From an uncultured Thermomicrobiales bacterium (GTDB taxonomy: Bacteria; Chloroflexota; Chloroflexia; Thermomicrobiales; UBA6265): a DNA stretch of 64,000 nucleotides. Positions 7,384 through 14,162 of the stretch are shown piece by piece; position 1 is the first letter of the stretch; each line of letters begins with the position of its first letter. A model generated the notes under the pieces. It had not been told where the DNA came from and searched no databases. It worked only from the letters and a program-made list of their open reading frames with translations. A program made the position numbers and the translations under genes. The stretch lies in contig CADCWG010000156.1 in NCBI GenBank assembly GCA_902806335.1, positions 1 through 64,000 on the forward strand, given 5' to 3'.

Positions 7384-9273
7384 TCACTCCACCGCGATCA
7401 CGTACCGGTAGTGCGGCTGGCCGCCGGCATAGACCTCGACCTCCACCCCGGGGTGGTCCGCCGCGATGGTAGCCCGGAGGGTCTCCGCCTGCTCGGGCGC
7501 GATGCCCTCGCCGGTGAAGACGGTCACCAGTTCGGCGTCGTCCAGGCCCGCCTCGGCGAGCGCCGCGCCGGTCACCGCGTCGTCGTCGTCCCCGCTGGCG
7601 ACGAGCACGTCGTCGAGCAGGCCGATCGCCTGCCCGGCCCTCACCGCGACGCCGTTGATCGTCGCGTCCCGGACGGCGCGGGTCAACTCGACGGTGCGGA
7701 CCGAGGCCAGGGCGGCGACCATCGCCGCCGCGTTGGCGTCGAGGTCGCCGTCGGACTGGTGCGCCGCCAGCGCGGCGAGGCCCTGCGGGACGGACCGGCT
7801 CGGAACCACGCGAACCCGCTTGGAGGTGAGCTCGGGAACGTGGTTCGCGGTGAGGACGATGTTGGGGTTGTTCGGCAGCAGGATGACCTCGTCCTGCTCG
7901 GCCACGGTCACGGCGTCGAGGAGCTCTTCGATGCTGGGGTTCATCGTCTGCCCGCCGCGGATGATCCCGCTCGCGCCCATCGAGCGGAGCGCCTCCCCCA
8001 GGCCGTCGCCGGCGGCGACCGCGAGGATCGCCTGGCGGCCGAGCGGCGCGACGGCTGCCGTGTCGCTCGCGGCGGCGACGGCGGGGACCGGCCGGCCGGC
8101 AGACGTCTGCTGGGCGGCCTCGTGCCGCTGCTCGTGCCGCTGCTCGTGCTGCTGCTCCCGCCGCTCCCCGCGCTGGTCGGAGAGGGCGCGGGTCTGCGCC
8201 TGCATGTTGTCGATCTTGATCTGACCGAGCTCGCCGAGGCGCAGCGCGTAGTCGAGCACCATGCCCGGGTTGAGGACGTGGATGTGGACCTTGAGGACGG
8301 TGTCGTCGCCGACGATCACGGCCGACTCGCCCATCGCCGCCAGCTCGGCGCGGCTCCGTTCGAAGTCGATCCGCTCCCCAAAGACCATGAAGTTCGTGCA
8401 GTAGCCGAAGATATCCTCGCCGTGGAGCTCCTCGACCTTGTCGAGGAAGGCCATCTCCGCCCCGACCGCCGCCGGGTCGGTGGTCCCGGTCGCGTCCGCC
8501 GGCACCGACGCCTCGCCGCGCGCGTACCGGGCCATCCCGGCGAGGATGTGGACGACGCCCTGGCCGCCGGCGTCGACCACGCCGGCCTGGCGCAGGATAT
8601 CGAGCAGGTCGGGGGTGGTGGCGAGGGCCGCCTCCGCGCCCTCGGTCGCGGCGCCGATCACCCCGACCAGCGACGGGTCGACGGCGGCGCGGGCGGCGGC
8701 CCGCTCGGCCGCGCCACGGATGACGGTCAGCATCGTCCCCTCGACCGGGCGCATGACCGCCTTGTAGGCCATCTCCCGCGCCTGGACCAGGGCCGCGGCG
8801 AGGGCGGGACCGTCGATCGCGTCCTCGTCGGCGACGGCCCGCGCGAACCCGCGAAAGATCTGGGAGAGGATCACGCCCGAGTTGCCGCGGGCACCCATCA
8901 GGGCACCGTAGGCGACCTTGGCGGCGACCTCGCCGGCCCGAGCGGCGGCCGGACCGCGCAGCGCCGCGGCCTCGTCCAGGGCCGCCCGCATCGTGAGTCC
9001 CATGTTCGTGCCCGTGTCGCCGTCGGGGACCGGGAAGACGTTGAGGGCGTTGATGCGGTCGCGGTTCGCGGTCAGGGCGTCGGTGGCGGCGGTCACCGCC
9101 GCGAGAAGCGCGGGGCCGTCCCAGGGCGCGGTGGCCGCCGCCGTCCCGGGATCGTCCCGCGGGTCGGGCGGGCCCTCACGGTGGGCGGTGCCGCCGTTCG
9201 TGGCGAGCGGGGCGACGGCGGGGCTGGGCTCGGTCGCCGTGAGCGCGTCCTTCGCGTGTCCGCGGCGGCTCAT
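7384..9273 (-). CDS. DAK2/DhaL-domain kinase, FakA/YloV-like
   Basis: DALTANRDRINALNVFPVPDGDTGTNMGLTM; ARGNSGVILSQIFRGFA; C-terminal VILLPNNPNIVLTANHV; His/Gln/Glu-rich linker EQQHEQRHEQRHE. Confidence 0.9.
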   Translation of the reverse strand: MSRRGHAKDALTATEPSPAVAPLATNGGTAHREGPPDPRDDPGTAAATAPWDGPALLAAVTAATDALTANRDRINALNVFPVPDGDTGTNMGLTMRAALDEAAALRGPAAARAGEVAAKVAYGALMGARGNSGVILSQIFRGFARAVADEDAIDGPALAAALVQAREMAYKAVMRPVEGTMLTVIRGAAERAAARAAVDPSLVGVIGAATEGAEAALATTPDLLDILRQAGVVDAGGQGVVHILAGMARYARGEASVPADATGTTDPAAVGAEMAFLDKVEELHGEDIFGYCTNFMVFGERIDFERSRAELAAMGESAVIVGDDTVLKVHIHVLNPGMVLDYALRLGELGQIKIDNMQAQTRALSDQRGERREQQHEQRHEQRHEAAQQTSAGRPVPAVAAASDTAAVAPLGRQAILAVAAGDGLGEALRSMGASGIIRGGQTMNPSIEELLDAVTVAEQDEVILLPNNPNIVLTANHVPELTSKRVRVVPSRSVPQGLAALAAHQSDGDLDANAAAMVAALASVRTVELTRAVRDATINGVAVRAGQAIGLLDDVLVASGDDDDAVTGAALAEAGLDDAELVTVFTGEGIAPEQAETLRATIAADHPGVEVEVYAGGQPHYRYVIAVE

Positions 9274-10390: not shown

Positions 10391-12247
10391 GTGGACGCCG
10401 CGCAGCAGTCGGCCGTCGCCGACCCTGGTGGCGACTAGGGGGACACCCGGCGCGAGTTTCGGGTCGCCGGCGCCCATGCCTACGACCAGCGGAGCGCACC
10501 GCGGTGGGTGGTCTCTCACCTCGCGCGCTACCCCCGTCACCTCACCGTTCTGGCCCTGGGGACTCTCGTCGCCAACGCCCGTAACGCGGGGCTCGCGCTC
10601 CTCACGGGCGTCGCCTTTGACGAGGTCCTGCGCGGCGAGCCCGACCGCGGGCGGCTGCTGACCATCGCGTTCGGACTGCTGGCGACGGTCCTGATCGCCA
10701 ACGGCGCCGACCTCGCCGGTCAGTTCTCGGCCGAGGTGCTCGGTAAGAGGCTCGAGCGCGACGCCCGCGAGGAGCTCTATGCCTCCCTGCTCGGCAAGAG
10801 CCAGACCTTCCACAACCGGCAGCGGGTCGGCGACATCATGGCCCGGGCGACGAACGACGTCCGTCAGATCAACTCGATGGTCGTGCCCGGCCTGGCGCTG
10901 ATCGCCGACTCGATCGTCACGGTCGCGGCGACCCTCGCCGCCGTCGCCCTGGTCGACGCGCGGCTCCTGCTCGCGCCCGGTCTCTTCGTCGCCGCCTTCC
11001 TGGTCGCGCTTCGGGCCTACTCCCGCGAGTTGGCGCCCGTCGCCGGGGCGATGCGCGAGCAGTTCGGCGCCACCAACGCCGGGCTGGCCGAGGTGGTCGG
11101 CGGGATCGAGGTGGTCAAGTCCGCGGCGCAGGAGACGCAAGAGGAGCGGAAGTTCGCCACCAACGCGCGGCGCTTCCGCGACCTTGCCGTGAAGAACGGC
11201 CGGATCCAGGCCCGCTACCTGCCCCTGCTGCTCCTCGCGGTCGCGGCGGCCGGCGCCTTCCTCCACGGCGCCTGGTTGCTGGAACGCGGTGGGATCAGCG
11301 TCGGTGACCTCACCGCCTACGTCGGGCTGATGGGGGCGCTGCGGGTGCCGGCCGGGCTCTCGATCTGGACCGTCAACCTGGTCCAGATGGGCCTCGCCGC
11401 GAGCCGGCGGATCCTCGCGCTGCTGGCAGAGGAGACCGAGCTCGACGAGACCGCCGCTGGCCACCGGGCGCCGATCCGCGGCGAGATCGCCTTCGAGCAC
11501 GTCACGTTCGGCTACGGCGGCGAGCCGATCCTGCGCGACGTCTCCTTCCACGTCCCGGCCGGCGCGACGGTGGCGATCGTCGGGCAGACGGGGGCCGGCA
11601 AGAGCAGCCTAACCAAGCTCGTCAACCGGACCTACGACGTCAGTGCCGGGCGGGTGCTCGTCGACGGGGTCGACGTCCCGGAGTGGAGCCTCGACGCTCT
11701 CCGCTCCCAGGTCGCGACCATCGAGCAGGACGTCTTCCTCTTCTCGCGCTCGGTGGCGGCCAACATCGCCTTCGCGGGCGACGAGACGTCCCCCGGAGCG
11801 ATCGAGCGGGCGGCCAGGGACGCGCAGGCCGACGGGTTCATCCGCGGGTTTAAGGACGGCTACGCGACGGAGATCGGCGAGCGCGGCGTGACGCTCTCCG
11901 GCGGCCAGCGGCAGCGGCTGGCGATCGCCCGGGCGCTGCTCACGGACCCGCCGATCCTGATCCTCGACGACGCCACCAGCGCGGTCGACAGCGCCACCGA
12001 GGACAAGATCCAACTGGCGATCCGGCGAATCCAGGAGGGTCGCACTACGCTCCTGATCACCCACCGCCTGTCCCAGATCCGCTGGGCCGACATGGTGCTC
12101 GTACTCCACCAGGGCGCGCTGCTCGACCAGGGCACGCACGAGGAGTTGCTCGGCCGCTGCGACCTCTACCGTCGCATCTTCAGCCGCTACGAGCCGGCGC
12201 TGCCGGTCGCCGCCGCCGAGCGGCCGGAGCCGGTTGCCGCCGGCTGA
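10391..12247 (+). CDS. ABC exporter (fused TM+NBD), first partner; contains in-frame TAG at 10436-10438 if started at the GTG with good SD
   Basis: Walker A GQTGAGKSS, signature LSGGQRQRLAIARALL, Walker B ILILDDATSAVD; GTG at 10391 preceded by AAGGGGGAG; ORF caller starts after the TAG at 10508. Confidence 0.8.
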
Positions 12248-12281
12248 CGCCGACGCGCGGGCGCCGGGCGAGGTGAGTGCC

Positions 12282-14162
12282 GTGGCCTTCTTCATGAACG
12301 GGCTCGACCCGGAAGGGTACGACCGGACCTACGACGATCGGGTCCTCGTCCGCCGGGTGCTGGCGTACTTCCGCCCCTTCCGGTGGGCGATGATCGGCGT
12401 CGCGGCGATGGTCGCGATCGCGGCCTCGCTCGAGGTCGCCCTGCCGCTCCTCGTCGCGCGGGGGATCGATCGGCTGGCCGACGACCGCTCGGGCGCTCGC
12501 GTCGGCTGGCTCGCGGCGGGGATCCTCGGCGCCGGGGTCCTCGCCTGGGCGTTCAGCTTCGTCCGCTAGTGGGTCTCCGCCCAGGTCGTCGCCGATGTCG
12601 TGCTCCGGCTCCGGCTCGACGCGTTCCGGGCGGTGATGGCCCGCGACATGAGTTTCTACGACGAGTACCCCTCGAGCAAGATCGTCAGTCGCGTCACCAG
12701 CGACACCGAAGAGTTCGCGACCGTGGTCACGCTGACGCTCGACATCGCGAGCCAGGTGCTACTGCTGGTGCTCCTGGCGGCGCTCCTCCTGGCGACCGAC
12801 GCCCAGCTCGGGCTGGTCGCGCTGCTGATCGCGCCGCTGGTGGTGGCGGCGGCGCTGGGGTTTCGGAAGGTGGCGCGGGAGGCCCTCCAGCGGTCACAGC
12901 GCTCCAACGCCCGCGTCAACAGCAGCGTCTAGGAGGCGATGAGCGGGATCTCGGTCGCCAAGAGCTTCCGCCGCGAGGCGGCGATCTACGACGAGTTCCG
13001 CGAGGTCAACGCCCGGGCCTACGCCGTCAACCTCCGGCTCGGGTTCCTCTTCAGCGCGATCTTCCCGATCCTGCTCACGATCGCCGGTCTGGGCACCACG
13101 CTGATGGTCTACCTCGGCGCGATGCGCGTACTCGACGGGGCGATCTCGGCGGGGCAGTGGTTCCTCTTCATCCAGGCGGTCGGGCTGTTCTGGTTCCCCC
13201 TGACCAGCGTGGCGTCGTTCTGGAGCCTGTTCCAGCAGGGGCTCGCCGCCAGCGAGCGGGTCTTCGCCCTCGTCGACGCCGAGCCGCGGGTGGTCCAGAC
13301 CTCCGCCGACGAGCCGGGCCGGATCCGGGGCCGGATCGAGTTTCGGGGCCTCGACTTCCGCTACACCGACCAGGAGACGGTCCTCTCGGGCTTCGACCTG
13401 ACCATCCCGGCGGGGCAGACGGTGGCCCTGGTCGGCCACACCGGCGCCGGCAAGTCGAGTCTCGGCAAGCTGATCGCTCGGTTCTACGAGTTCCAGGGTG
13501 GGCAGCTGCTGATCGACGGGCGCGACATCCGGTCGTTCGACCTCGCCGCGTACCGGCGGCAGCTTGGCGTCGTGCCCCAGGTGCCCTTCCTGTTCAACGG
13601 CACGGACGCCGACAACATTCGCTACCCGCGCCCGGAGGCCACCGACGCGGAGGTCGAGGCGGTGGCGCGGCGCGTCGGCCGGGGAGACTGGGTCGAGGGT
13701 CGGCCCGACGGGCTCGCCACCGCCGTTGGGGAGCAGGGCCGGGGCCTCTCCCTGGGCCAGCTGCACTTGGTCGCGCTGGCGCGGCTGCTGCTCCAGGACC
13801 CGGCGATCGTCGTCCTCGACGAGGCGACGGCGAGCGTCGACCCCCTGACCGAGGCCCAAATCCAGGAGGGCCTGGACGCGGTGCTGCGCGACCGGACGGC
13901 GATCGTGATCGCCCACCGCCTCTCGACGATCCGGCACACCGACCGGATGGTCGTCCTGGAGCGGGGGCGGGTGGTCGAGGAGGGAACCCACGAGGAGCTG
14001 GTCGCCCGGGGTGGCCACTACGCCCACCTCTACAACACCTACTTCCGCCACCAGTCGCCGGACTATCAGCCCGGCGAGGGGTTCGTCCAGGAGGCCGGTG
14101 TCAGGGCGCGCCGGCCCGTGGCGACCCACGGGACGGGGGTGCCGGTACCCGTCCTCCCGTAG
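12282..14162 (+). CDS. ABC exporter (fused TM+NBD), second partner; single frame interrupted by TAG at 12567-12569 and 12930-12932
   Basis: Listed ORFs 12234, 12600 and 12939 are all in the same frame and form one ABC protein: FVR*WVSAQVVADVVLRLRLDAFRAVMARDMSFYDE ... NSSV*EAMSGISVAKSF ... GHTGAGKSSLGKL ... IVVLDEATASVD. Confidence 0.75.

Follow-up and report, generated by a model that had tools for sequence, protein, structure and literature searches.

Three in-frame TAG codons in a heterodimeric-type ABC exporter operon of a Thermomicrobiales genome, probably marking recent inactivation

Heterodimeric type IV ABC exporters such as TmrAB and TM287/288 pair two adjacent half-transporters, each with a transmembrane and a nucleotide-binding domain (TMD-NBD), and usually hold a Walker B Asp in one half and the catalytic Glu in the other. 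Interruption of such coding sequences by TAG can be set beside two described kinds of recoding or retention: TAG recoded to Gln has been shown in phages (PMC9523058), and seemingly maintained in-frame stops, including a TAG/CAG example, have been reported across bacteria (Belinky et al. 2021, PMC7918605). In the passages found in a large alternative-code screen, Chloroflexi are mentioned only for contaminated assemblies (PMC8629427). The operon studied here lies in a 64-kb stretch of DNA (the window) on contig C156 of a draft genome of 4.82 Mb in 332 contigs, estimated as 92.6% complete with 2.2% contamination. The named orthologs among its relatives put this genome near Thermomicrobiales (Chloroflexota). 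Gene A (10391..12247, + strand) opened with a GTG start after a Shine-Dalgarno-like AGGGGGAG, and its partner, gene B (12282..14162, + strand), probably started at GTG 12282 and ended with a TAG at 14160-14162. Both proteins matched the Pfam profiles ABC_membrane and ABC_tran almost from end to end when each internal TAG was read as one residue, in agreement with the original prediction that the transmembrane and nucleotide-binding domains were complete in both genes. As read from the sequence, Walker B was LILDDATS in gene A, with the non-catalytic Asp, and VVLDEATA in gene B, with the catalytic Glu, giving one degenerate and one consensus ATP site, and in both the paired half-transporters and this asymmetry the locus resembled TmrAB and TM287/288. 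PDB matches included 6raf chain A and TM_0288 (3qf4) for gene B, and TM_0288 for gene A. Neither exporter gene was an uninterrupted ORF.

The TAG codons at 10436, 12567 and 12930 lay in frame, as had been predicted, and the ORFs at 12234, 12600 and 12939 did share one frame; over 3.8 kb, both exporter frames were free of TAA, TGA, indels and further disruption. The first TAG (10436..10438, + strand) was the sixteenth codon of gene A and lay in an N-terminal tail that is not conserved, six codons upstream of a conserved EF.V motif. Most gene A orthologs had a candidate start 3-27 residues upstream of this motif and did not share the tail. No ATG, GTG or TTG separates the TAG from the motif, so the N-terminus of gene A would be lost unless translation begins elsewhere; the next canonical start, GTG 10508, would remove the motif. 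The second and third TAGs (12567..12569 and 12930..12932, both + strand) fell in gene B at positions where 68/89 orthologs (FVR-Q-W) and 87/90 orthologs (VNSSV-Q-EAM), respectively, had Gln, counts that leave out the window's own sequence and include some genomes twice. The motifs given in the original prediction were thus borne out, and its proposal that TAG arose from CAG was supported at these two sites; for the first site, orthologs offer no conserved equivalent. Orthologs from the same family, the same order and beyond (55-67% identical) lacked stops at these sites, and the exporter reading frame was disrupted relative to these intact relatives, as in a pseudogene. The base directly after TAG was G, T and G at the three sites, none of them a known leaky context.

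That all three interruptions were TAG had been taken to set the exporter apart from a decayed gene, and this argument did not hold. Codon content alone makes 77% of single-step nonsense mutations over both exporter genes TAG, a share that transition bias hardly alters; an all-TAG outcome in three hits (p about 0.47) is therefore not informative. In this 73% GC genome, CAG occurred at 25.5 and CAA at 1.5 per 1000 codons. The decayed gene of the original comparison, a helicase at 41.2-42.2 kb (minus strand), was real and carried several stops and a frameshift.

TAG was also an ordinary terminator in this genome. In the 2.03 Mb (of 4.82 Mb) scanned by codon usage, genes ended with TAG 510 times, with TGA 471 times and with TAA 74 times, making TAG the commonest (510/1055), and RF1 (prfA) was present, scoring 502 bits where the cut-off was 423. 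Together these ruled out a global reassignment of TAG; internal TAGs were few, and the combination of a TAG rare or absent at gene ends and frequent inside genes, which marks a code 15 type of reassignment, was not seen. Both the reality of TAG as a stop and the lack of a global change had been correctly anticipated. ARAGORN and Rfam found 44 tRNAs and one tmRNA; no pyrrolysine or suppressor tRNA was among the 44 (0/44 with a CTA anticodon), a set in which tRNAs for Trp, Cys and Ile were missing too, so that a CTA tRNA may have escaped detection. Within the 64-kb window, Rfam returned no recoding element, tRNA-Lys being its only match.

Against this background, we consider it probable that the exporter operon was recently inactivated in its lineage, which makes it at present a young pseudogene or one in the making; a local artefact, amber readthrough and a split gene follow in that order. 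This reading is favored by the lack of a CTA tRNA among those found, the presence of RF1 and the substitutions at near-invariant sites of gene B. Gene B would have been struck by two or more nonsense mutations, for which the simplest origin is a change from CAG to TAG where Gln is conserved; before or after these it would have lost constraint at some conserved positions. Gene A would have gained one early nonsense change and otherwise stayed intact. With TAG ending translation, gene B would give only short fragments and no exporter would be made. In this account, the CAG ancestry, the sequence in which the changes came and the functional loss itself are all inferred. Other ABC exporters encoded in the same genome, at 34-38% identity, could stand in for the broken pair. 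Among the options originally offered, recent inactivation is therefore the favored one, reassignment is excluded and readthrough is weakened.

Constraint was compared at near-invariant columns, defined as those conserved in at least 97% of orthologs, across 82 sequences (gene B and 81 orthologs). Gene B deviated at 10/183 such columns, the most of any sequence (next highest 7, mean 1.5), an excess that is only modest because several stop-free Thermomicrobiales orthologs deviated at 4-7. It also had five private changes at columns invariant in all others, the joint maximum of the 82, and three of these, R495L, Q496H and Q317L, went beyond simple aliphatic swaps. The first two follow the signature LSLGQ, where gene B reads L-H and 81/81 orthologs read R-Q. 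In a relative-rate test, gene B ranked mid-field and showed no overall acceleration over gene A, so the excess change is confined to conserved columns. Also against inactivation, gene A had lost no constraint (0/133 near-invariant columns changed) and no indel had accumulated in the 3.8 kb. Three nonsense hits with 6-10 conserved missense hits fitted a neutral-decay model (P 0.06-0.34), and with only 4 conserved hits the excess of nonsense over missense became borderline (P 0.03-0.08). The stops and the constraint data fit recent decay and do not prove it.

The closest competitor, unlikely although of appreciable weight, is a draft consensus that is locally wrong through low coverage or mixed strains, the living genes having sense codons at the three sites. 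The assembly's fragmentation, incompleteness and contamination, with a run of N in at least one contig, would allow for this, as would the full conservation of gene A and the occurrence of lone stops in otherwise intact genes elsewhere. One of these genes was a DppB-like permease (L262:8434-9375, - strand; contig C314), with a TAG at 8931 ('LLGI*MPAFW') and no other damage. Another was dnaE (L069:5241-8732, + strand; contig C86), the only match in the genome to a polymerase III alpha query at E <1e-100 and 80% identical to its nearest relative. Its in-frame TAG at 8322 was residue 1028, 136 codons upstream of the gene end, and 216/216 invariant columns were intact. DnaE is normally essential and a truncated form should be harmful, which makes the dnaE TAG probably either a sequence error or subject to (weak) readthrough. 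It thereby raises both alternatives for the exporter, and another cause may operate genome-wide.

The distribution of interruptions weighs on the other side. A coding-continuity scan covered 2.03 Mb; its strict setting had a sensitivity of 39%, and a looser one added a few interruptions (dnaE, the DppB-like permease, a GNAT gene and the helicase of the window). When 181 kb were compared by filtered homology search, the exporter TAGs, the dnaE TAG and one possible TGA were all that came up, two further stops at alignment gaps or gene ends being left uncounted. In the part of the genome covered, interruptions were few, with TAG and TGA both occurring. An in-frame TGA was seen in the GNAT acetyltransferase-like gene (L080:13223, - strand), so these rare interruptions are not TAG-specific. 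A possible in-frame TGA was also noted at L280:17341 (- strand), where the gene shares 50% identity with a foreign ORF. Four other candidates were normal gene junctions, at rplO/secY, between an uppS-like gene and its neighbor, at the ychF end and at an ABC ATPase start. Genome-wide domain searches found 81 ABC_tran, 31/31 adh_short_C2 and 130/131 BPD_transp domains stop-free, the remaining BPD_transp domain carrying a TAG. Genome-wide C-to-T damage or error was rejected, the rest of the scanned genome being too clean. At the background rate implied by the genome's other interruptions, three hits in 3.8 kb would have a probability between about 3e-4 and 1e-3 if errors fell uniformly, with 534 blocks allowed for. 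The exporter cluster is not explained by uniform random error; local decay explains it, and local misassembly could. The additional changes at conserved sites of gene B also count against an artefact.

Less probable again is amber readthrough, weak or regulated, in which a near-cognate tRNA-Gln(CUG) or an unseen suppressor would allow low levels of full-length exporter and DnaE. It would account for two TAGs at conserved Gln codons and for a TAG in the only DnaE-type gene found, and in-frame stops kept under purifying selection have been described in bacteria (PMC7918605). The incomplete tRNA set leaves room for a suppressor, and tRNA-Gln(CTG), present as two genes of identical sequence whose surroundings differ (L069:1806-1879, - strand, and L074:310-383, + strand), also counts in favor. 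Yet TAG is the main terminator, RF1 is present and no CTA tRNA was seen. The dnaE site is also no conserved Gln, as relatives had T, D, G, A or E there, and gene B would have to be read through twice, which would make its product very scarce. The TGA in the GNAT gene, too, is foreign to a TAG-specific mechanism. We therefore regard readthrough as weakened, and keep it as an option because dnaE also carries one TAG. Its wider form, a Thermomicrobiales lineage that tolerates low-level amber readthrough with TAG still its main stop and with a few genes, dnaE included, working despite an internal TAG, is more doubtful still. If the exporter and dnaE stops are real and read through, the organism would be one that partly suppresses amber codons and nonetheless has TAG as its commonest stop. 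Least credible of all is a split gene B whose fragments, made by termination and re-initiation at GTG 12600 and ATG 12939 (10 and 2 codons past the TAGs), reassemble in the membrane. The possible restart ORF at 12939..14162 (+ strand) codes for the last transmembrane segments and the NBD and follows TAGGAGGCG, with a Shine-Dalgarno-like AGGAGG just upstream of the ATG. However, this motif would be there with a Gln codon too and sits very close to the ATG, none of the orthologs examined is split and the breaks would fall inside the transmembrane domain.

If recent inactivation makes the exporter an ordinary case, then in GC-rich genomes an all-TAG set of interruptions does not speak for recoding, since codon content alone would make about three in four nonsense mutations TAG there. 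Compared with the phages that use genetic code 15 (TAG = Gln), the exporter is alike in having TAG at Gln sites; it differs in that its genome ends genes with TAG more often than with any other stop, encodes RF1 and yielded no CTA tRNA, and in that internal stops are rare, whereas in those phages they are spread over all genes. The retained in-frame stops of bacteria (PMC7918605) are similar in showing TAG where relatives have Gln (CAG) within otherwise coding-like sequence, but no second genome shares the exporter stops. Unlike TmrAB and TM287/288, the operon has an interrupted gene B without the R-Q pair that follows the signature in its orthologs. From the nonsense-interrupted genes and young pseudogenes of bacteria it differs in having three stops of the same kind, no indel and a fully conserved partner gene; like them, it has an otherwise intact frame, C-to-T type nonsense changes at Gln codons and, in gene B, signs of relaxed constraint.
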